Source: an uncultured Sphingomonadaceae bacterium (GTDB taxonomy: Bacteria; Pseudomonadota; Alphaproteobacteria; Sphingomonadales; Sphingomonadaceae). From it: a DNA stretch of 64,000 bases. The stretch is from the NCBI GenBank assembly GCA_947501695.1, contig CANMWO010000001.1:868001-932000 (forward strand). The letters are read 5' to 3'. The position numbers were made by a program, and so were the translations under genes. Shown here piece by piece: positions 25,698 through 39,438 of this stretch (its first letter is position 1; each line of letters begins with the position of its first letter). Under the pieces are notes generated by a model, which saw only the letters and a program-made list of their open reading frames with translations, did not search any database and had not been told where the DNA came from.

Positions 25698-26393
25698 CTA
25701 AGCTGCTTCCGTATCCAGGGCATATCCAGCAGAGCGAACGGTTCGGATGACGTCCGGGCGCTCGTTTGCGTTCAGAGCTTTGCGGAGGCGCCGGATATGC
25801 ACGTCGACCGTGCGGAGCTCTATATCGCTATCCTGTCCCCAGACGCTGTCGAGTAAGCGCTCGCGGGAGAAAACCCAATTGGGGTGCTCCAAAAAATGTC
25901 GCAGCAGACGAAATTCAGTAGGCCCCAAAGGAATTGTATCGCCATCGCGCTTCACTTTATGGCCAACGGTGTCCATTTCCAGATCGCCAAAAGCTAGTTT
26001 TTCGCCGGCTAGGGCAGGGCGCACCCGGCGCAGCACGGCTTTAACTCGGGCAATTAACTCGCGCGGACTGAACGGTTTTGTAATATAATCATCGGCACCG
26101 GTTTCTAGGCCACGAATCTTGTCTTCTTCCTCGCCACGTGCAGTGAGCATGATGATTGGAATATTAGCGGTTTCTGAGGATCGGCGCAGGCGGCGGCAAA
26201 CTTCAATGCCGGATAGATTTTCAATCATCCAATCCAACAATATAACATCGGGCCGGTTTTCCTTGACCAGCAGTAAGGCTTCTTCGCCATCAGCTGTGTG
26301 AATGACGTCATATTCTTCTTTTTTGAAGTTCCATGACAATAGCTCCGCTAGAGCCGCATCATCTTCTACCAGTAACAGTTTTGCGTTGGACAT
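25698..26393 (-). CDS. phoB: Phosphate regulon response regulator PhoB
   Basis: Receiver plus winged-helix domain, next to phoU/pst. Confidence 0.96.
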   Translation of the reverse strand: MSNAKLLLVEDDAALAELLSWNFKKEEYDVIHTADGEEALLLVKENRPDVILLDWMIENLSGIEVCRRLRRSSETANIPIIMLTARGEEEDKIRGLETGADDYITKPFSPRELIARVKAVLRRVRPALAGEKLAFGDLEMDTVGHKVKRDGDTIPLGPTEFRLLRHFLEHPNWVFSRERLLDSVWGQDSDIELRTVDVHIRRLRKALNANERPDVIRTVRSAGYALDTEAA

Positions 26394-26397
26394 ATTG

Positions 26398-27123
26398 CTA
26401 TCTCCCGGTTGTAGGCTCTTCTAAAAGATCAGTAGGGTTTTCGCCGCGATCGCGTTCGGGCATCGGTTCACCCTTGGCAGCAAAATAGACCATTTCCGCA
26501 ACATTTGTTGCGTGATCGCCAATGCGTTCGAGATTTTTGGCGATGAAAAGCAGGTGAGCCGCTTCCCCAATATCCTTGGGATTTTCGATCATATAGGTGA
26601 TTACTGACCGGAAAATGCTGGTGTAAAAATCATCAACAATCTGGTCCCGTTCGCTGACTTCCAACGCAAGGTCAGCGTCGCGTCGTGCAAAGGCTTCCAG
26701 AGCGTCACGTACCAGCTCTGAAGCAATGTTTGACATAGATGGTAACAGTGAGGCTGGCCCCAATTTATGAGTGCTGGCAATGACCGGGACACGTTTCGCG
26801 ATATTCTTGGCATAGTCACCGATGCGCTCAACAACGCCAGATATCTTGAATGTCGCGATGAGTTCGCGGAGATCGTCGGCCATAGGCGCTCGTAGAGCTA
26901 TGGTCTGAAATGTCAGTTCATCAATGCGTTTTTCAAGCTCATCAATTAACTTATCTTCTGCGACGACTTCTTCAGCCAATTTCAAATCATGTTTCTCAAG
27001 TGCACGCATGGCTTTAGCTATAGCCTGTTCGCTGCGACCACCAATTTCTGCAACCATTCCGCGCAGCTCGTTAATGTCAGTATCAAAGGCTTTTACGGTA
27101 TGTTCTGTTCCGGTATTGGCCAT
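26398..27123 (-). CDS. phoU: Phosphate signalling protein PhoU
   Basis: HTVKAFDTDINELRGMVAEIGGRSEQAI, LERIGDHATNVAE. Confidence 0.96.
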   Translation of the reverse strand: MANTGTEHTVKAFDTDINELRGMVAEIGGRSEQAIAKAMRALEKHDLKLAEEVVAEDKLIDELEKRIDELTFQTIALRAPMADDLRELIATFKISGVVERIGDYAKNIAKRVPVIASTHKLGPASLLPSMSNIASELVRDALEAFARRDADLALEVSERDQIVDDFYTSIFRSVITYMIENPKDIGEAAHLLFIAKNLERIGDHATNVAEMVYFAAKGEPMPERDRGENPTDLLEEPTTGR

Positions 27124-27152
27124 CTATCGGGTTCCTTCCCTTTTCGATCCGC

Positions 27153-27995
27153 TTAACCGTAGCGTCCGGTTATATAGTCCCGCGTCTTTTCCTGTGTTGG
27201 ATTGGTAAATATGTCTGATGTTACGCCATATTCCACCAGTGTTCCCAAATGGAAAAAGGCGGTACGTTGCGACACACGGGCAGCTTGCTGCATATTATGC
27301 GTCACGATAACGATGGCATATTTGCCGCGGAGCTCGTGAATGAGTTCTTCAATTTTTGCTGTCGCGATCGGATCAAGCGCTGAGCAAGGTTCGTCCATCA
27401 AGATTACTTCAGGATCGACAGCAATAGCTCTTGCGATACAAAGCCTTTGTTGCTGACCACCGGATAAAGCGGTTCCGCTGTCCTGCAAACGATCTTGTAC
27501 TTCGCCCCACAAGCCTGCCCGTTGGAGAGAAGTCTCAACAATATTATCTAGTTCGTCTTTGCTGGTTGCCAGTCCGTGAATACGCGGGCCGTAAGCGATA
27601 TTGTCATAAATCGATTTGGGAAAGGGATTGGGTTTTTGAAACACCATGCCGACGCGGGCGCGCAGTTGCACGACATCCATTTTTGGCGCGTAAATATCTT
27701 CGCCTTCCAGCGTAATATCACCGGTGACCTTAGCGATAGGAATAGTGTCATTCATCCGGTTTAAACAGCGAAGGAAGGTTGATTTGCCGCAGCCAGAAGG
27801 ACCGATGAAAGCGGTGACATTATCCATTGTTACATCGATGGAGACGCCGTTAATCGCCTGTTTTTCACCATAGAAAACATCCACATTTCGAGTGGTCATT
27901 TTCAATGGCCCATCGCCAGCGGAAATGGCTGGAACTGTGGATTCTGTCATAGTCGAACTTTCACTGGTACTGGCGCTGTCTACTAAATCTGTCAT
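27153..27995 (-). CDS. pstB: Phosphate ABC transporter ATP-binding protein PstB
   Basis: [35 protein letters not shown]. Confidence 0.97.
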
Positions 27996-28003
27996 ATCAT
28001 TAT

Positions 28004-29272
28004 CTACCAGCGGGTTTCAAAACGATTGCGTAAATATATCGCAAGAGCGTTCATGGTGAGTAGGAACAAGAGTAATACGATAATCGCGGCCGAGGTTTTT
28101 TCTACAAAACCGCGATTCACTTCATCGGACCACAAGAAAATTTGCACCGGAAGAACAGTGGATGGTTCAACTATGCCGCCGGGTGGGGTCGCGATAAAGG
28201 CGCGCATCCCTATCATCAGCAAAGGTGCAGTTTCCCCCAAAGCGCGAGCCATGCCGATAATGGTACCGGTGAGAATACCAGGCAGGGCAAGCGGCAGAAC
28301 GTGATGGAACACAACCTGCATTTGGCTCGCACCGATGCCCAATGCCGCCTCACGAATAGATGGAGGCACGGCTTTGACAGCATTGCGTCCGGAAATAACG
28401 ATCACTGGCATGGTCATAAGGGCGAGCGTTAGACCGCCGACCAACGCCGCCGATCGCGGTAGGCCAAAGAGATTGAGAAATACAGCCAAACCAAGCAGAC
28501 CAAAGATGATCGATGGAACCGCTGCGAGATTATTGATCGAAACCTCAATCAAGTCAGTGTAGCGGTTTTTTGGGGCATATTCTTCAAGATAGAGGGCAGA
28601 AAGTACGCCAATGGGAAAGGCGATCATCAATGTGATAAACATAGTGATCAACGAGCCTTTCAGCGCTCCCCAAATCCCGACTTGCATCGGATCGGTTGCA
28701 TCCGAATTAAACAGGAAGTTACTGTTAAAGCCAGTGCTCAGTTTATCACCCAATTCTGCAACTTTCTTTTCAGCAAAAGCGTTGCCGTCACCTTTATAGG
28801 CAACGTCAATCTCTGATTCCACAGGCAGATAGAGTGTGGTTTTTGTTTCGATAACATCCGGGTCACTCATTATTGCTGTACTGACCGCCTGCCAGCCTCC
28901 AGCTGAAAATAACTCTCTGCCTTTCTCCCCATATTGGATTTCAACGCTGGCATTCACAATATCGCGGACACCCAATGTTCGAAGATTGGCTTTGCCATTC
29001 GCGCCTTCAAACTGGCTTGCCGAAGCACCGCCAGTCATCGCTGGAAAATCGATCTCGACAGGAAGCTCGGTCTGGGTAAAGCCACGTAGACCGTTTCCGA
29101 CCATCACGATCAGCAGGAAAGCTAGAAATCCAGCCGATAACATTATGGCGCCAAGGCCCAGCGCCTTAAACCGACGCTCGGCAGAATAGCGCTTGCGAAT
29201 ACGCTTCTGCATCGCGTCGCCTTGCCAATCGGTCGGATTGCGCGCTTCTACAATGGCAGCGGTGCTATTCAT
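28004..29272 (-). CDS. pstA: Phosphate ABC transporter permease PstA
   Basis: Permease motifs, position in pst operon. Confidence 0.95.
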
Positions 29273-30647
29273 AAGCTTCCCGATATTTTTTCACGACCCT
29301 GAGTGCGATCAAATTAAGTAATAGCGTGACGATGAACAGCACCAACCCAAGCGCGAAGGCAGCTAGCGTTTTGGGACTATCAAATTCTTGATCACCAGTA
29401 AGTAACTGAACGATCTGGGTCGTTACTGTGGTCACACTGGAAAATGGATTAGCAGTCATATTAGCGGCTAAACCGGCGGCCATCACAACGATCATTGTCT
29501 CGCCGATCGCTCGACTTACCGCCAACAGTACACCGCCGACGACGCCTGGAAGCGCTGCCGGGATCAGCACTTTTTTGATGGTTTCACTTTTAGTTGCTCC
29601 CATGGCGAGCGAACCGTCGCGCATCGCACTTGGGACAGCCGCTATGCTGTCATCGGCCATCGAAGACACGAACGGGATAATCATGATACCCATAACCACG
29701 CCAGCGGCTAAGGCCGATTCTGAAGAGGCGCCGGAAATCCCGATGGAAACAGCAAAGTCCCTTAAGGCTGGCGCAACGGTTAGTGCCGCGAAATAGCCGT
29801 AAACAACTGTGGGAACGCCTGCGAGAACCTCTAATATGGGCTTCATCCAGGCGCGGAAATTGGGAGGTGCATATTGGGTTAGATAGATCGCGCTCATCAA
29901 ACCCAATGGGATGGCGACAATCATAGCGATAATTGCGCCAATGAATACAGTGCCCCAGAATAACGGAATGGCACCAAATCCTGTTTCACCGCGCGGACCG
30001 GCCACCGCTTTGGGGTTCCATTCCGTGCCAAACAAAAAGTCTATCGGCGATACCATCGAAAAGAATCGCGCTGACTCAAAGATCAGTGATGCAAATATGC
30101 CGACGGTTGTGATGGTCGCGATGAGCGATGCAAGAAGCAGCGCCATCATGGTGATGCGCTCTATCTTTGTTCGTGCCCTCAGCTCCGGTTTCAATCTCAG
30201 CCAGGAATAAGCGCCGCCCGCAAATACCAACAAAAGTGCCGCAATTGCGCCAAGTGTCTGATAGTAGGATATGGCCGTCTTATAGGGCTCAACCATTGAT
30301 TTGGAGAGCGGATTAAATGCTTTGACCTGTTGGCCTGAGGCAATTGAACGGGCTTCAGCTAATATAGATCCGCGTGCAAAAGCGTCCTGGGGTAGTTGTT
30401 CTGCAGCTGGGCTGGCAAGCGCGGCATCGGTGATTAGTGCCGGGCTAGAGAAACTCCAGATAACTAGAAATAAAAGGGCAGGGCCGATTGCCCAAAGGGC
30501 GACATACCAGCCATGATAAGCAGGGAGAGAATGTACTTCTCCCCTTTTTGTGCTGCTCGTGGAAAAACGACTCGCTTTAACGCGGCCAAAAAACCAAGCA
30601 ATGCCACCAAGAACGATGATCAGCAGGAAGAGAATAGAGCCTGTCAC
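29265..30647 (-). CDS. pstC: Phosphate ABC transporter permease PstC
   Basis: GLMSAIYLTQYAPPNFR, VLAGVPTVVYGYFA, GETMIVVMAAGL. Confidence 0.95.
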   Translation of the reverse strand: MTGSILFLLIIVLGGIAWFFGRVKASRFSTSSTKRGEVHSLPAYHGWYVALWAIGPALLFLVIWSFSSPALITDAALASPAAEQLPQDAFARGSILAEARSIASGQQVKAFNPLSKSMVEPYKTAISYYQTLGAIAALLLVFAGGAYSWLRLKPELRARTKIERITMMALLLASLIATITTVGIFASLIFESARFFSMVSPIDFLFGTEWNPKAVAGPRGETGFGAIPLFWGTVFIGAIIAMIVAIPLGLMSAIYLTQYAPPNFRAWMKPILEVLAGVPTVVYGYFAALTVAPALRDFAVSIGISGASSESALAAGVVMGIMIIPFVSSMADDSIAAVPSAMRDGSLAMGATKSETIKKVLIPAALPGVVGGVLLAVSRAIGETMIVVMAAGLAANMTANPFSSVTTVTTQIVQLLTGDQEFDSPKTLAAFALGLVLFIVTLLLNLIALRVVKKYREAYE

Positions 30648-30684
30648 GGTAAAATAACTGATCCTTGGTTAGAAATATATGCAG

Positions 30685-30722
30685 CGGAATGCGGACTGCT
30701 TAAGATAGCAGCCCGCATTCCG
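30685..30722 (-). other. Intergenic stem-loop between pstS and pstC
   Basis: CGGAATGCGGACTGCT-taagat-AGCAGCCCGCATTCCG, 15/16 paired. Confidence 0.7.
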
Positions 30723-30730
30723 AAAGTTAT

Positions 30731-31774
30731 TTATTTCAGTTCAGTACCAGTCAAAGTCGGCAAACTTTTTGCTGTGTCTGCCATTTGTGTACGAATATCG
30801 TCAGGTGATGCGATGAGGCCAGCTTTCACAAGATAGCCATCTTTTCCGCCTGCTCCCACGAATTCAGTTAGATATTCCTGAAGTCCAGGAATAACGCCAA
30901 CATGCTGTTTCTTGGCGTAAATATAAAGCGGACGCGCTCCAGGATACTCACCGGATGCAATCGCATCATATTTTGGCTCAACACCGGAAACTGCAACGCC
31001 GCGAACCGAGTCGGTATTTTCTTCTAGGAAGCTGTAACCGAAAATGCCCACACTATTAGGATTGGCTTTCAGTTTCTGGACGATCAAATTGTCATTTTCA
31101 CCCGCATCAATATAGGCGCCGTCGGCACGAACATCGTGACAGATAGCATCATATTCATCTTCGTCGGTATCTTTCAACGCTTTGGTGGCGGCGTCTGTTT
31201 TACAGCCTACCTCCATAATCAGTTCCGTAAGTGCATCGCGTGTACCTGAAGTCGAAGGCGGGCCATAAACGCTGATCGAGATGTCAGGCAGCGAAGAATC
31301 GATGTCAGACCAGTTTTTCGTTTCATTCTTTTTACCAAATGGACGCTCTGCGATGGCCTCGTAAATTTGTGTTGGCGTCAATTTGATCGATGGCCCTTCA
31401 TTGGCTTGCGCGATCGCGATTCCGTCAATACCGATCTGAACTTCAACGACATCAGTAACGCCATTTCCTTTACACATTTCAAATTCGGACGCCTTCATCC
31501 GCCGTGAAGCATTGACGATATCGGCAGTGTTTGCGCCAACGCCGGCACAGAATAGCTTCATTCCGCCACCAGTACCGGTTGATTCCAGAATGGGTGAAGT
31601 ATTCGAGCCATCAGAGCTAAACTGTTCTGCAACCGCTTTGGCAAATGGGAAAACAGTTGAGGAGCCGACTATTCTGATTTCGCTGCGAGTTCCACCTTGT
31701 CCGCCAGAAGCCTGATCCTGACAAGCGGCTAATGCGAGAGTGGACACCGCCAAAAGAGCGATTTTCTTAAACAT
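30731..31774 (-). CDS. pstS: Phosphate ABC transporter substrate-binding protein PstS
   Basis: IVGSSTVFPFAKAVAEQF, STGTGGGMKLFCAG, GPPSTSGTRDALTEL. Confidence 0.95.
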   Translation of the reverse strand: MFKKIALLAVSTLALAACQDQASGGQGGTRSEIRIVGSSTVFPFAKAVAEQFSSDGSNTSPILESTGTGGGMKLFCAGVGANTADIVNASRRMKASEFEMCKGNGVTDVVEVQIGIDGIAIAQANEGPSIKLTPTQIYEAIAERPFGKKNETKNWSDIDSSLPDISISVYGPPSTSGTRDALTELIMEVGCKTDAATKALKDTDEDEYDAICHDVRADGAYIDAGENDNLIVQKLKANPNSVGIFGYSFLEENTDSVRGVAVSGVEPKYDAIASGEYPGARPLYIYAKKQHVGVIPGLQEYLTEFVGAGGKDGYLVKAGLIASPDDIRTQMADTAKSLPTLTGTELK

Positions 31775-31875
31775 TATACTGTCCCCGTTTTTTATGGAGT
31801 GGTGAAAAATTGGCCAAGAATCGGATTTGATTTCTAGCCGATTTGCTGTGTTTAAAAGTCGGCAATGTCCTAATG

Positions 31876-31893
31876 ATTACATATTTATGACAG
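31876..31893 (-). promoter_or_regulatory. Pho box upstream of pstS
   Basis: Minus strand CTGTCATAAATATGTAAT, 16/18 match to CTGTCATAAATCTGTCAT. Confidence 0.8.
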
Positions 31894-31926
31894 AAATATT
31901 ACACCGGGCGGATTTGAACTGCCGTC

Positions 31927-33162
31927 CTATGATTTGATGACGGGTAGAAAAATTGCCACCGTCGTGCCGACCCCTTGTCCGCTGGTGACTTCCATTCGCC
32001 CCCCGTGGCGCTCTGTAATATGTTTGACGATAGCTAGCCCTAACCCAGTTCCGCCGATCGATTTGCTTCTACCTTTGTCGACACGGTAAAAACGTTCGGT
32101 CAATCTTGGTATGTGTTCGGCTGCTATGCCATCGCCCTGATCTGTGACGGCCAGCCGTAGCATGGATCCGTTCCGATTTGGCTCGATCGCGACGGAGATA
32201 GGGGTGCCGCGCCGCCCATATTTGTAGGCGTTACTGACTAGATTGTGGAGCAGTTGAGACAACTGTGCATAATCGCCTTGGACCGGTGGTAAATTATTCG
32301 GCAGCGAAACGACAAAATCATGATCTTTCTTATTGCGGCCGTTGAGGAATACGGCTTTCACCTCGGCCACCAAATCGGCAAGATCAACCGGCTCAGCAGG
32401 CAGTTGGTATTTTTCTGCTTCAATACGAGATAGCGACATCAAGTCTTCGACCAGGCGCTGCATTCGGTCGGCTTCTTGATACATGATGTTCAGGAAACGG
32501 GCGCGTGTGTCTTCGTCTTTCCCCGCTTCAGGGTTTTCGAGTGTCTCGATAAAGCCTTTGATGGCTGCGAGGGGCGTCCGCAACTCGTGACTCGCATTGG
32601 CAACGAAATCAGTGCGCATACGTTCAGCGGCATAGCGGCTGCTCTGATCGGAGAGCTGAACGAGTTTTAATCCGTCCCCCAGTGCGTGAATTCGCAATTC
32701 CCAGCGTTGATCCGCGCTACCGACCCCAACTAATAGAATTGGTTCCCCCGAGTGTTCGGCGTTGGGATTGGCAAGCCGGTCAGCGGCTGCCGGATGGCGG
32801 ATGGCGACTCGAACATCTTCGCCGATAATATGATTGCCGAGAAAATTCTTCGCCGCGGGATTGGCTGCCGCTACCTTGGCATTGCGAATAAGCAAAATCG
32901 GATCGGTGATCGGATCTATTACGTCCTGATAAGCCTCGGCTCTTCCTTGATATAAAATCCTTTTTTTCTGGCGTTCCAGCGCGGAGAAATCAGGTTGCGG
33001 CGTTGCGGCGTCTTCGAGCGCAATGATTGCCAAAGCGACGACACCAAAAGCAGACATGATGATAATTTTCATCAATGCAGGAGAGGTTTGCGTGGCCAGA
33101 ACCGATCCTCCAATGATGAGAAGGATAGCAAAAATCAGGCGAAAAGGAGAAATTGTGTTCAT
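31927..33162 (-). CDS. phoR: Phosphate regulon sensor histidine kinase PhoR
   Basis: DFVANASHELRTPLAAIKGFIETL, GGTGLGLAIVKHI; beside pstS. Confidence 0.93.
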   Translation of the reverse strand: MNTISPFRLIFAILLIIGGSVLATQTSPALMKIIIMSAFGVVALAIIALEDAATPQPDFSALERQKKRILYQGRAEAYQDVIDPITDPILLIRNAKVAAANPAAKNFLGNHIIGEDVRVAIRHPAAADRLANPNAEHSGEPILLVGVGSADQRWELRIHALGDGLKLVQLSDQSSRYAAERMRTDFVANASHELRTPLAAIKGFIETLENPEAGKDEDTRARFLNIMYQEADRMQRLVEDLMSLSRIEAEKYQLPAEPVDLADLVAEVKAVFLNGRNKKDHDFVVSLPNNLPPVQGDYAQLSQLLHNLVSNAYKYGRRGTPISVAIEPNRNGSMLRLAVTDQGDGIAAEHIPRLTERFYRVDKGRSKSIGGTGLGLAIVKHITERHGGRMEVTSGQGVGTTVAIFLPVIKS

Positions 33163-33399: not shown

Positions 33400-33828
33400 A
33401 TGCCGGACAATGCAAATCAGAATTATATGCCTTTAGAATCTAAAAAAGAATCCGACAATGGCGCCATTGTAACCCGTCGCCGTGCGTTGATGATGGGCGC
33501 TGTAACAGCTTCTGCTATTGTCAGCATCAAACCAGCTTTGGCGCAAACTGCCGGTTCTGTTCTCAATTGTGAGATTCCAGTGCCTGGCAATCACGCTGCG
33601 GGCGGCTTTATTGGTCCCGACGGCAAAATTGTATCACCTGATACGCCGGGCGCATTCCCGCCAGCGGGCCGTAATTTTACTGGCGAAGAAGTAAAACGCG
33701 CGATGAATGGCCGTTCTTTGCCTGGTACATCATACGACCAATCCAAAGCTTATGTGAATTATATCCGCCGGCTGCAGTCTGGACAAAGTGGCTTTACTTG
33801 CTACGCCTCCCTGCAAATGCCGCGATAA
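33400..33828 (+). CDS. Tat-signal small secreted protein of unknown function, candidate partner/substrate of the downstream cassette
   Basis: TRRRALMMGAVTASAIVSIKPALAQ Tat-like signal; two Cys in the mature part; start refined to MPDNANQNYM. Confidence 0.7.
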   Translation: MPDNANQNYMPLESKKESDNGAIVTRRRALMMGAVTASAIVSIKPALAQTAGSVLNCEIPVPGNHAAGGFIGPDGKIVSPDTPGAFPPAGRNFTGEEVKRAMNGRSLPGTSYDQSKAYVNYIRRLQSGQSGFTCYASLQMPR

Positions 33829-33936
33829 GCGGTGCTTTGATTTTCGGCTTCAAAGCCAACGCTTATTAACATATTCATGCTACCAGACAGGCCTGTTTTG
33901 AATGACTTGCCTTGATCAGGAATAGTGTAACCGAAA

Positions 33937-34215
33937 ATGAGCCAGCTTTATCGTGCCGCAGCCCCTGATGGGCTAATCCAGTTTCCGCTGGACAGTATGA
34001 CTCTGATTTTCCAGAAATCATCAGGGATCACGCATATGGTTGCTGATCCGGTACCAGCGATAATCGAGGTAATGGCTGAGGATATATTGACTGCTGATGA
34101 TGTCGCACAGCGGCTCTCTGCCAGCTATGATCTGGAAGATACTGCTGATGCCGCTGATATCGTGCTGGCGAGGCTGGTTGAGCTGTGCTCGCTTGGTCTC
34201 GTGGAACAGGTGTAG
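33937..34215 (+). CDS. PqqD-like protein (HPr-rel-A system PqqD family type)
   Basis: FQKSSGITHMVADPVPAIIEVMAEDILTADDVAQRLSASYDLEDTADAADIVLARLVELCSLGLVEQV matches the PqqD pattern. Confidence 0.8.
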   Translation: MSQLYRAAAPDGLIQFPLDSMTLIFQKSSGITHMVADPVPAIIEVMAEDILTADDVAQRLSASYDLEDTADAADIVLARLVELCSLGLVEQV

Positions 34216-34220
34216 GTCAG

Positions 34221-35090
34221 GTGGCACGGCTCCATCACCTTTATCTGACCGTCGGCCCGGCACGCTTCCGGGTTGCTTCAACTTGGCGGCAACCTCTGGA
34301 TCAATTGGCTGCGCTGTATAAGGACTATCCTGCATCGCAAGATGGTTATGCGGATTTTACGGTCCGCTTGGAGCCTGAGAAGCCATGGCGGCGCTATATC
34401 CGGCCATCGGTCCATATTTCAGGTGACTATTGGCTGCCCGATGCTGCGCCATTGCCGCTGAACCAAAGCCTGTTGGCGGCTGAAATGGGTATGAACCTGC
34501 AAATGGCTCTAGGCTGGCGGCGGCACCTTTTATTGCATGCCAGCAGCGTCGAAAAAGATGGCAAGGCCTTGCTGATGACCGGACTGTCTGGTTCGGGGAA
34601 ATCGACATTATCCGCCATGCTCGCGGAAAAAGGCTGGCGATTCATGGGCGATGAATTTGCATTGCTTAACCCGGATACCGGCATGGTGCACAGCTTCCCG
34701 CGCCTTATCAGTCTGAAAAATGAGGCAATTGCAGCTATGCAAGCGATTGTGCCTGATAACCGGTTTGGTCCTTTGATGAAGGATACGCCAAAAGGCGATA
34801 TTCGCCATATCGTTCCGCCGCTGGATTCTGTGAACAAGATGGCAGACCCTGCGAAGCCAGCCTTGCTGCTATTTCCGCGTTTCGGCTATGATCCCGCACT
34901 GCGCGATATGGGTAAGAGCGAGATTTTCGTGCGTCTTACTCAGGCTTCGACCAACTATGTCGCTCTGGGTGAAGTGGGCTTTCGTGCGCTAACAATGTTT
35001 GTTGATACGGTGCCGGTTAAGGCAATAGACTATCAATCAGCGGATCAGGCCGAAGAGCTGATTGATGGTCTCTGGGGCGAGCTGTCATGA
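34221..35090 (+). CDS. HprK-related kinase A-like protein
   Basis: LLHASSVEKDGKALLMTGLSGSGKSTLSAMLAEKGWRFMGDEFALL (HprK-like P-loop); start placed at GTG 34221 after the pqqD-like stop. Confidence 0.82.
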   Translation: MARLHHLYLTVGPARFRVASTWRQPLDQLAALYKDYPASQDGYADFTVRLEPEKPWRRYIRPSVHISGDYWLPDAAPLPLNQSLLAAEMGMNLQMALGWRRHLLLHASSVEKDGKALLMTGLSGSGKSTLSAMLAEKGWRFMGDEFALLNPDTGMVHSFPRLISLKNEAIAAMQAIVPDNRFGPLMKDTPKGDIRHIVPPLDSVNKMADPAKPALLLFPRFGYDPALRDMGKSEIFVRLTQASTNYVALGEVGFRALTMFVDTVPVKAIDYQSADQAEELIDGLWGELS

Positions 35091-36106
35091 TGCACAATGC
35101 TCAATCTTTGGTGGATGCTCTTCGAGAGCCGGATACGGTTCTTGCGCTTGACGGGGCAAAGTGGGCGGATCTCATCAGTATTGCCCGGGCAGAGTCACTT
35201 GTCGGCAGTTTGGCCCATCGTTTGGCAGATATTGAGGTGCCGAAGCAGGTTGAACCAATTCTGAGGGATGCGATTCAAGCCACTGACCTTGCTCGACAAC
35301 AGGCGCTTTGGGAGGCGGATAGCGCGCGCCGTGCCCTCGCACCACTAAACTGTAAGACGGTGCTGATGAAGGGCACCGCTTATGTCGCAGCGAATCTCGA
35401 CGTGGGTATCGGACGGAGCATTGGCGATCTCGATATCATGGCCGCACGGGATCAGTTGCCCGCTGTCGAAGAGCTATTGCTTGACGCCGGTTGGGAATGG
35501 GTGAAGCAGGACTCTTATGACGATCAATATTACCGCGATCATATGCATGAGCTGCCGCCGCTGATTCATCGCGAACGCGACCGGATGATCGATGTGCATC
35601 ATACAATTTTGCCATTGACCGCACGGCCAACGCCTAATGCGGTCGAGATATTGAATGCGGCAATTAAGCTGGATTCCGAACTCTACGTGATGGCGCCTGC
35701 TGATATGCTGCTCCACTCGGTTGCGCATCTTTTTGCTGATGGTGACTTGGCGGGGGGATTGCGCAACTTGTGGGATATTGATCGGCTGGTGCAGCAATTT
35801 GCTAACGAAGATAAAGAGTTCTGGACGGAATTGGCCACACGCGCGAAATTACATCAACTGGAACGGCATCTTGAGCGCGCACTGCGACTGGCCGCTCGGC
35901 TATATGGCACGCCCGTTTGTGAAGATCGCGCGGGTAAGACTAGATTTGCCGATTTTCTATACGTTCGCCGCCTGTTAGCGAGAGACGGATGGGGTCGGGA
36001 AAATCGAAAGTTCACACGGCAAGCCTTCTATATCCGTTCCCATTGGTTAAGAATGCCGCCGCTTATGCTCGCTCGACATTTATGGACAAAGTGGCGCAAG
36101 GGCTGA
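35087..36106 (+). CDS. Nucleotidyltransferase family protein (NTP_transf_5-like)
   Basis: VLMKGTAYVAANLDVGIGRSIGDLDIMAARDQLPAVEELLLDAGW, DVHHTILPLTARPTPNAVEI; overlaps kinase stop. Confidence 0.82.
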   Translation: MMHNAQSLVDALREPDTVLALDGAKWADLISIARAESLVGSLAHRLADIEVPKQVEPILRDAIQATDLARQQALWEADSARRALAPLNCKTVLMKGTAYVAANLDVGIGRSIGDLDIMAARDQLPAVEELLLDAGWEWVKQDSYDDQYYRDHMHELPPLIHRERDRMIDVHHTILPLTARPTPNAVEILNAAIKLDSELYVMAPADMLLHSVAHLFADGDLAGGLRNLWDIDRLVQQFANEDKEFWTELATRAKLHQLERHLERALRLAARLYGTPVCEDRAGKTRFADFLYVRRLLARDGWGRENRKFTRQAFYIRSHWLRMPPLMLARHLWTKWRKG

Positions 36107-38248: not shown

Positions 38249-38803
38249 ATGAAATATCGCTCGGAGCTGCTTGATTTACTTATAAATGACCCGCTTCGGT
38301 GGTCCTTGATGCAAGATGTTCGAAGTTTAGATTTGCCCGATTGTTGGATCGGAGCTGGTTTTGTTCGCAACGCTGTATGGGATTATCTTCACCATATGCC
38401 GATCAGTTCACCGAAAACGGATATAGATGTAATCTGGTTTGACTCTTTGATTACAGACACCAGCGAAGACCAAAATTTAGAAGCGATCTTACGGGACAAA
38501 AATTCCGATTTTTGCTGGTCAGTTAAGAATCAAGCAAGAATGCATATAAGGAACGGCGATCGCCCTTATAATTCGTCCACTGATGCTCTTATGCATTGGC
38601 CGGAAATAGCGACTGCGGTCGCGGTTCGTGTAACCGCTGAAGATAGTTTGGAAATCGTAGCGCCTTTTGGATTGTCAGATCTTTATGAACTTCGTTTGGC
38701 GCCAACGCCTCATTTCCTGAAAAATAAAATAGAAGTTTTCAACAGAAGGGTTGCGAGCAAGAGATGGTTGGAAAGATACCCGCTTTTATCGATAGCTAGT
38801 TGA
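38249..38803 (+). CDS. Nucleotidyltransferase family protein (DUF925-like)
   Basis: LPDCWIGAGFVRNAVWDYLH..., KTDIDVIWFD. Confidence 0.8.
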   Translation: MKYRSELLDLLINDPLRWSLMQDVRSLDLPDCWIGAGFVRNAVWDYLHHMPISSPKTDIDVIWFDSLITDTSEDQNLEAILRDKNSDFCWSVKNQARMHIRNGDRPYNSSTDALMHWPEIATAVAVRVTAEDSLEIVAPFGLSDLYELRLAPTPHFLKNKIEVFNRRVASKRWLERYPLLSIAS

Positions 38804-38817
38804 CAAGATATCACGAT

Positions 38818-38835
38818 ATGATATCAGTATATCAT
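38818..38835 (+). promoter_or_regulatory. Operator-like inverted repeat overlapping the start codon of the antitoxin-like gene
   Basis: ATGATAT-CAGT-ATATCAT, perfect 7-bp arms; GATATC also at 38807 and 38820. Confidence 0.5.
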
Positions 38836-39073
38836 GACTCGTATCCTCGCTGACTTACCTGAAGAAGATGTTGAATGGCTCGACGCGCTTGCGGTGGAGC
38901 AGGGTAAGTCGCGTGCGGCTTTGCTCCGCGAAGCGGTTGAGGCTTACAGGGCGCGGGAAAGTCAGGACGGTATCGCTAAATATTTTGGTCTTTGGGCGCG
39001 CCATGGCTCGCAAGTCGATGGTCTGGACTATGAACGCAAAGTCAGCAGCGACTGGGATGGCGCACCGGAATGA
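38834..39073 (+). CDS. Ribbon-helix-helix antitoxin-like protein
   Basis: MTRILADLPEEDVEWLDALAVEQGKSRAALLREAVEAY RHH pattern; overlaps PIN ORF. Confidence 0.85.
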   Translation: MTRILADLPEEDVEWLDALAVEQGKSRAALLREAVEAYRARESQDGIAKYFGLWARHGSQVDGLDYERKVSSDWDGAPE

Positions 39074-39438
39074 TCGAAGCTTTTTTTGATACTAGCATCG
39101 TGGTGGATGCGCTCCAAAATGAACCGCGTGCGGGCGTCGAGTTACAGCGAACGAGTCGCCCGTGGATCAGCCGGATTAGCTGGATCGAAATTATGGCGAG
39201 TGCGCCGGAGGCGGCTTTGGCGGAGACCGAGGCTTTTTTGAGGCTATTTGCGATTAGTGAGCTCGATGAAGAAATTTCTCGCCGTGCCGCCTTGATGCGC
39301 CAACAGCGCCCGTCGCTGAGCTTTCCCCATGCGATTATTTGGGCCTCGGCCCAAGTATCTGGTCGCATTCTCGTTACTCGCAATATAAAGGATTTTCCGT
39401 CAGAGATGCCGGGTATCCGAATTCCTTATACACTTTAG
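39070..39438 (+). CDS. PIN-domain toxin (VapC-like)
   Basis: FFDTSIVVDALQNEPRAGVELQ, SWIEIMA, AIIWASAQVSGRILVTRNIKDF acidic PIN residues. Confidence 0.85.
   Translation: MIEAFFDTSIVVDALQNEPRAGVELQRTSRPWISRISWIEIMASAPEAALAETEAFLRLFAISELDEEISRRAALMRQQRPSLSFPHAIIWASAQVSGRILVTRNIKDFPSEMPGIRIPYTL

Follow-up and report, generated by a model that had tools for sequence, protein, structure and literature searches.

Three adjacent genes for a PqqD-like protein, a kinase related to HPr kinase, and a nucleotidyltransferase-like protein, with no peptide cyclase beside them, raise the question of what such a set of enzymes modifies. They lie in a stretch of 64,000 nucleotides from an uncultured Sphingomonadaceae bacterium, which was analysed as a whole and is henceforth called the window; by its nearest named relatives, it comes from a sphingomonad resembling Sphingorhabdus/Parasphingorhabdus. 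A sequence-only reading had assigned the genes to the HPr-rel-A system and regarded both substrate and chemistry as open. The features of the locus are as follows:

33400-33828, + strand: gene of a secreted protein (142 aa), the proposed cassette substrate (synteny, leader profile, co-occurrence)
33469-33549, + strand: twin-arginine leader, residues ~24-50 (TRRRALMMGAVTASAIVSIKPALAQ), proposed to act as export signal and to bind PqqD
33799-33813, + strand: CYASL motif (C134-L138), with C134 and S137 invariant
33808-33810, + strand: codon of Ser137, the conserved serine of the C-terminal motif and proposed phospho-acceptor
33824-33867, + strand: RNA hairpin ahead of pqqD, possibly an attenuator (-18 kcal/mol, z -3.2)
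33937-34215, + strand: gene of the PqqD-like RiPP-recognition-element (RRE) protein (TIGR04353, 49.6 bits; cut-off 35)
34221-35090, + strand: gene of the HprK-related kinase A, 289 aa, GTG start (TIGR04352, 245.5 bits; cut-off 200)
35087-36106, + strand: gene of the nucleotidyltransferase-like protein, 339 aa (PF14907, NTP_transf_5, 165 bits; cut-off 31.2)

The three enzyme genes are packed as had been described from the sequence, with 5 nt between pqqD and the kinase gene and a 4-nt overlap (ATGA) between the kinase and nucleotidyltransferase genes in the open reading frames of the window. An HPr-rel-A system was defined by matches to TIGR04353 and TIGR04352 above the curated cut-offs together with an adjacent PF14907 protein, and all three were found among the window genes, in agreement with the earlier assignment. 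In an even sample of the phylum, 51 of 398 genomes had a TIGR04352 match, compared to none of the 14 controls. Genome comparison showed that the three genes remain linked across Sphingomonadaceae and far outside it; the wide co-occurrence on which the sequence-only reading had made its case depend is thus observed. No substrate, chemistry, or role was found in the literature searched for these cassettes, which are widespread in the phylum.

The earlier statement that the window encodes neither cyclase nor protease also held. No asparagine-synthetase ORF was present in the 64-kb window, where GlmS was the sole class II amidotransferase seen, PF13471 (the lasso B2-type protease domain) had no match anywhere in the genome, and inspection of the ORF list gave no peptidase or exporter among the genes flanking the cassette. 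With no cyclase in the window and no B2 protease in the genome, a lasso pathway was dropped. An anti-phage defence role was dropped as well, as there was no convincing PADLOC match.

In an alignment of 41 diverse kinases, H106, G124-x-G126-K127-(S)-T129, D144-E145, and K191-G192 were invariant. The His, Lys, and first Asp of L. casei HprK align with H106, the P-loop residue K127, and D144, and the second Asp is Glu (E145) in every sequence, compared to a catalytic set of His-Lys-Asp-Asp in the lasso kinases (PMC9266682); the HprK catalytic residues, on which the sequence-only reading had staked the kinase relationship, are thus kept apart from this substitution. Against TIGR00679 (HPr(Ser) kinase), the window kinase scored 19.8 bits, far under the cut-off of 240. 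Its predicted structure (pLDDT 96) had PEP carboxykinases as best PDB folds (E ~1e-8 to 1e-6), followed by HprK/P (E ~1e-4), both of which are known relatives of this kinase fold. For the nucleotidyltransferase, K95-G96, R110, D114-x-D116, and D169 were invariant in 25 sequences, and a pol-beta-type signature (DxD and a third Asp) is present in D114-x-D116 and D169. The profile of the PqqD family gave one clean single-domain PDB match, namely the lasso RRE TfuB1 (6jx3, E 0.0017); its matches to CpcN and designed repeat proteins add up many weak domain matches and were disregarded. Given the conserved catalytic residues, the kinase fold, and the match of PqqD to a lasso RRE, all three proteins are expected to be active.

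The substrate of these enzymes is very likely the secreted protein encoded directly upstream. Its gene was absent from the cassette of the sequence-only reading, which had brought up the protein solely for joint structure prediction with PqqD; the view of the substrate as open is superseded by this strong candidate (33400-33828). Almost all retrieved sphingomonad loci have the gene upstream of pqqD, and cassettes of distant Proteobacteria carry at the same place an ORF with a very similar leader (~RRRxLLKGxAAGxPAIVTLxSGxALA) and an unrelated body. The window protein, which has two conserved Cys, matched no Pfam, NCBIfam, or PADLOC family, and a sequence search with it gave no match in the distant cassettes. 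A leader profile was built on the first set of loci and frozen before being used on 54 new cassettes. It detected a same-strand upstream gene in 49 of these 54, with 1 off-target among 1396 ORFs, and in a 50th cassette the leader gene was evident by eye. No leader gene was present within ~1.4 kb in the other 4 (L190, L196, L197, and L199), and L163 (G279) has a cassette without an adjacent leader-bearing gene; these loci may have the substrate gene at another place or use a different type of substrate.

The window protein shows the Tat features RR, hydrophobic stretch, and A-x-A; generic Tat profiles matched its relatives weakly, under the cut-off, and did not match the window protein. Its predicted structure was confident only for residues ~70-130, with a low-confidence C-terminal tail. 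Two plasmid-borne genes of this type carry the NCBI label "hypothetical protein", and the leader is present in both translations. On the Vibrio alfacsensis plasmid NZ_CP140104.1 (L239, 7875-10942), genes for an HprK-related kinase A, a nucleotidyltransferase, and a leader-bearing upstream protein adjoin genes for 2-aminoethylphosphonate use, with no annotated PqqD gene in between. The hairpin at 33824-33867 was considered as a conserved attenuator between the substrate gene and pqqD and was dropped, as it is strong in the window and absent as a signal in the relatives (mean z -0.5 vs. -0.3 in the control). In 15 Sphingobium-type loci (L067, L078, L108, and 12 more), a group 4 glycosyltransferase gene lies between the substrate gene and pqqD.

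Regarding the surroundings, a divergent phosphate regulon (phoB-phoU-pstBACS-phoR, 25698-33162) adjoins the substrate gene in the window. As phoR adjoins this gene in most Sphingomonadaceae, the system may be under phosphate control. Three extra genes separate glmU from glmS in the window, apparently for a nucleotidyltransferase-like protein (38249-38803) and for a ribbon-helix-helix/PIN toxin-antitoxin pair (38834-39438); glmU directly adjoins glmS in S. parapaucimobilis (L238).

Co-occurrence of kinase and substrate was established by comparing 201 genomes of the Sphingomonadales, 83 of which carry the kinase. The window-type substrate was found in 45 genomes, all of them kinase-positive, and in none of the 118 kinase-negative ones; within the family of the window, it was present in 45 of 46 kinase-positive genomes. 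In genus g31, a rearrangement has parted the substrate gene, which adjoins phoR, from the cassette, which adjoins gph-glmU; the two are distant from each other or lie on separate contigs. In the genomes compared, simple linkage is inadequate to explain the association of kinase and substrate, because both unlinked parts are retained in the g31 genomes read.

Two classes of serine motif were recognised in the substrates. Since these motifs were spotted in the data before being counted, the following counts are descriptive, and the prospective test covered the leader and its position only. The pattern [ST]C[WYFLIV]xS, located at most 40 residues from the C-terminus (type 1), was found in 42 of 57 non-redundant substrates (shuffled sequences: mean 0.16, maximum 3); the window version is TCYASLQMPR, whose conserved serine, Ser137, is followed by five more residues. 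After addition of the new loci, 101 non-redundant substrates were split into 47 of type 1 (with Ala too allowed before Cys) and 54 others. S[GA]xxS occurs within ~40 residues of the leader in 46 of these 54 (shuffled: 8.6, maximum 16), and none of the 47 type-1 substrates has SG..S at the leader-proximal place. The type-2 motif SISGxMS resembles the Ser46 region of HPr, a likeness on which no conclusion is based. A third, small class of substrates (L133, L205, L206, and L207) has an AYTSL-like or SAxAYTS-like tail, near type 1 and without Cys. On the tree of 101 kinases, the substrate classes need 2 changes (the minimum) vs. 35.6 with shuffled labels, which shows that kinase and substrate motif have travelled together. 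We lean slightly towards these serine motifs as the place of the phosphorylation site, and the low-confidence modelled tail around Ser137 is as expected for an accessible acceptor.

Cassettes are often located inside loci of exosortase A (XrtA) and exopolysaccharide (EPS). Over three clades pooled, XrtA was present in 161 of 166 kinase-positive vs. 102 of 355 kinase-negative genomes, i.e., 81/83 vs. 66/118 in the Sphingomonadales, 30/33 vs. 23/167 in the order of G079, and 50/50 vs. 13/70 in the family of G278, where XrtA was counted only above the curated cut-off. Fisher p-values for this association range from 1e-12 to 6e-22 and, by ignoring kinship, overstate its independence and strength. 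When on one contig, XrtA and cassette lay at most 60 kb apart in 28 of 47 Sphingomonadales genomes, 10 of 13 in the G079 order, and 30 of 36 in the G278 family; in the window genome (G000), XrtA (343 bits) is 83 kb away. The commonest NCBIfam matches among 120 neighbour proteins of 18 non-Sphingomonadales cassettes include XrtA/PEP-CTERM parts (the TIGR03108 amidotransferase, PrsK, a PEP-CTERM-box response regulator, two glycosyltransferases, and a chain-length determinant). These genomic associations make a functional tie of the cassette to XrtA and EPS likely. The asparagine-synthetase-like neighbours in EPS loci were dropped as peptide cyclases, as TIGR03108 fits them far better than the lasso-cyclase model; the missing peptide cyclase is normal for the HPr-rel-A system.

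We infer a four-gene system for protein modification and export within the XrtA/EPS machinery, a reading that we hold to be moderately probable as a whole. The upstream protein would be made with an N-terminal leader bearing a twin-arginine signal, and the PqqD-like protein would bind this leader and, before the protein leaves the cytoplasm, present it to the HprK-related kinase. The kinase would phosphorylate a conserved Ser, i.e., Ser137 in the flexible C-terminal tail of the window protein and the SGxxS serine in the other class. Subsequently, the nucleotidyltransferase-like enzyme would act on the phosphoserine and add a nucleotidyl or sugar group in a PsmN-like manner, and the finished protein, exported probably by Tat, would work at the cell surface together with exopolysaccharide from the XrtA/PEP-CTERM system. 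Modification in the cytoplasm before Tat export fits this order of events.

Phosphorylation of the upstream protein on Ser is fairly likely by analogy, as PadeK and its relatives phosphorylate a C-terminal precursor Ser (PMC9266682) and LppK phosphorylates Ser3 of the LPP core (PMC13381572), both in pathways with an RRE. Addition of a sugar or nucleotidyl group by the PF14907 protein is a tentative assignment: PsmN, an annotated nucleotidyltransferase, is needed for the hexose on the phospho-Ser of pseudomycoidin (PMC9266682), and deletion of LppN caused no detectable change in LPP (PMC13381572), which makes the role of the nucleotidyltransferase less certain. It is conceivable, if on balance unlikely, that the phosphoserine is a glycan attachment point tied to XrtA exopolysaccharide and that the exported glycoprotein anchors or primes the polysaccharide via a Ser-phosphate-sugar link. 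To our knowledge, such a surface attachment chemistry has not been described for Gram-negative bacteria.

The enzyme set shared with LPP and paeninodin clusters, LPP precursors with a likewise conserved N-terminus and variable C-terminus (PMC13381572), and the match of the PqqD profile to a lasso RRE would also suit a usual RiPP pathway, in which the modified core is excised and released as a bioactive (antimicrobial or signalling) product, as for phosphorylated lasso peptides and LPPs. We consider this improbable, given mature parts of ~75-230 aa, the structured stretch predicted in the substrate of the window, its strong conservation in Sphingomonadaceae (63% mean column identity), and the lack of a lasso protease in the genome, of a cyclase in the window, and of a peptidase or exporter in the flanking genes.

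The serine motif, which is conserved along with the cysteines and whose class tracks the kinase, argues against a role of PqqD as leader chaperone, with kinase and nucleotidyltransferase making or activating a small molecule for loading into the exported protein and no Ser being modified. Tat export typically follows cofactor loading of a protein, the substrate has conserved Cys residues, and the activity of the PF14907 protein in this system is a prediction, all of which would accommodate such loading. However, HprK-fold kinases of RRE pathways phosphorylate a precursor Ser (PMC9266682, PMC13381572), and we rate the small-molecule route as quite improbable. The kinase might also be a regulator of phosphate or EPS signalling with another target, the secreted protein being a neighbour by inheritance. 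This is very improbable: the cassette of Sphingomonadaceae does adjoin phoR-pst and glmU/glmS, and HprK is classically regulatory, but beyond Sphingomonadales these neighbours change and the secreted gene stays, and substrate and kinase co-occur even when unlinked.

The preferred reading, modification of an exported protein on Ser, provides a substrate candidate, a specific Ser, and a link to XrtA/EPS, which make the HPr-rel-A question experimentally approachable. The HPr-rel-A system is already named by NCBI (TIGR04352/TIGR04353) and its enzyme module is known; these families cover the kinase and the PqqD protein only, to which the window adds the secreted fourth gene. Neither this gene nor the motif classes nor the XrtA link turned up in NCBIfam, in Pfam, or in the literature searched. 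The substrate class, its types of motif, and the association with XrtA thus seem not to have been described before, an earlier description being possible in subscription journals, which were mostly outside that literature.

Compared to known systems, HprK/P shares with the window kinase the P-loop kinase fold and the aligned His, Lys, and first Asp, and differs in the second Asp (Glu in the window kinase) and in the profile score far under the HprK cut-off. The XrtA/PEP-CTERM system is connected to the window system by genomic co-occurrence and frequent proximity; however, the substrate has no PEP-CTERM-like tail, and the cassette is an accessory that only some of the genomes with XrtA carry. 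The LPPs of Bacillota (Popov et al. 2026, PMC13381572) resemble the window system in having an RRE, an HprK-like kinase, and an NTP transferase without a cyclase, a precursor conserved at the N-terminus and variable at the C-terminus, a location in polysaccharide loci, and phosphorylation on Ser, which for the window system is a proposal. LPP clusters have a SipW-like peptidase and an MsbA-like exporter of their own, and the LPP leader bears a YxxP motif (PMC13381572). On inspection, their leader motif YxxPxVLxHQxIxFETxxS was absent from the secreted protein of the window, and no such peptidase or exporter was recognised among the ORFs around the cassette; the window system, in turn, differs from LPP in its twin-arginine leader, larger proteins, occurrence in Proteobacteria, and association with XrtA. 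The likeness to the RRE/kinase/nucleotidyltransferase set of phosphorylated lasso peptides, which had been pointed out from the sequence, is supported: paeninodin and pseudomycoidin (PadeK, PsmK, PsmN; PMC9266682) also combine an HprK-like kinase with a nucleotidyltransferase-like partner, and their acceptor Ser lies near or at the C-terminus, as the candidate Ser of the window does near its end. Unlike these lasso clusters, the window has no cyclase or B2 protease, and its candidate substrate is a protein. The preferred reading suggests that the modification module of lasso peptides and LPPs is used in Proteobacteria on exported proteins instead of small peptide products.
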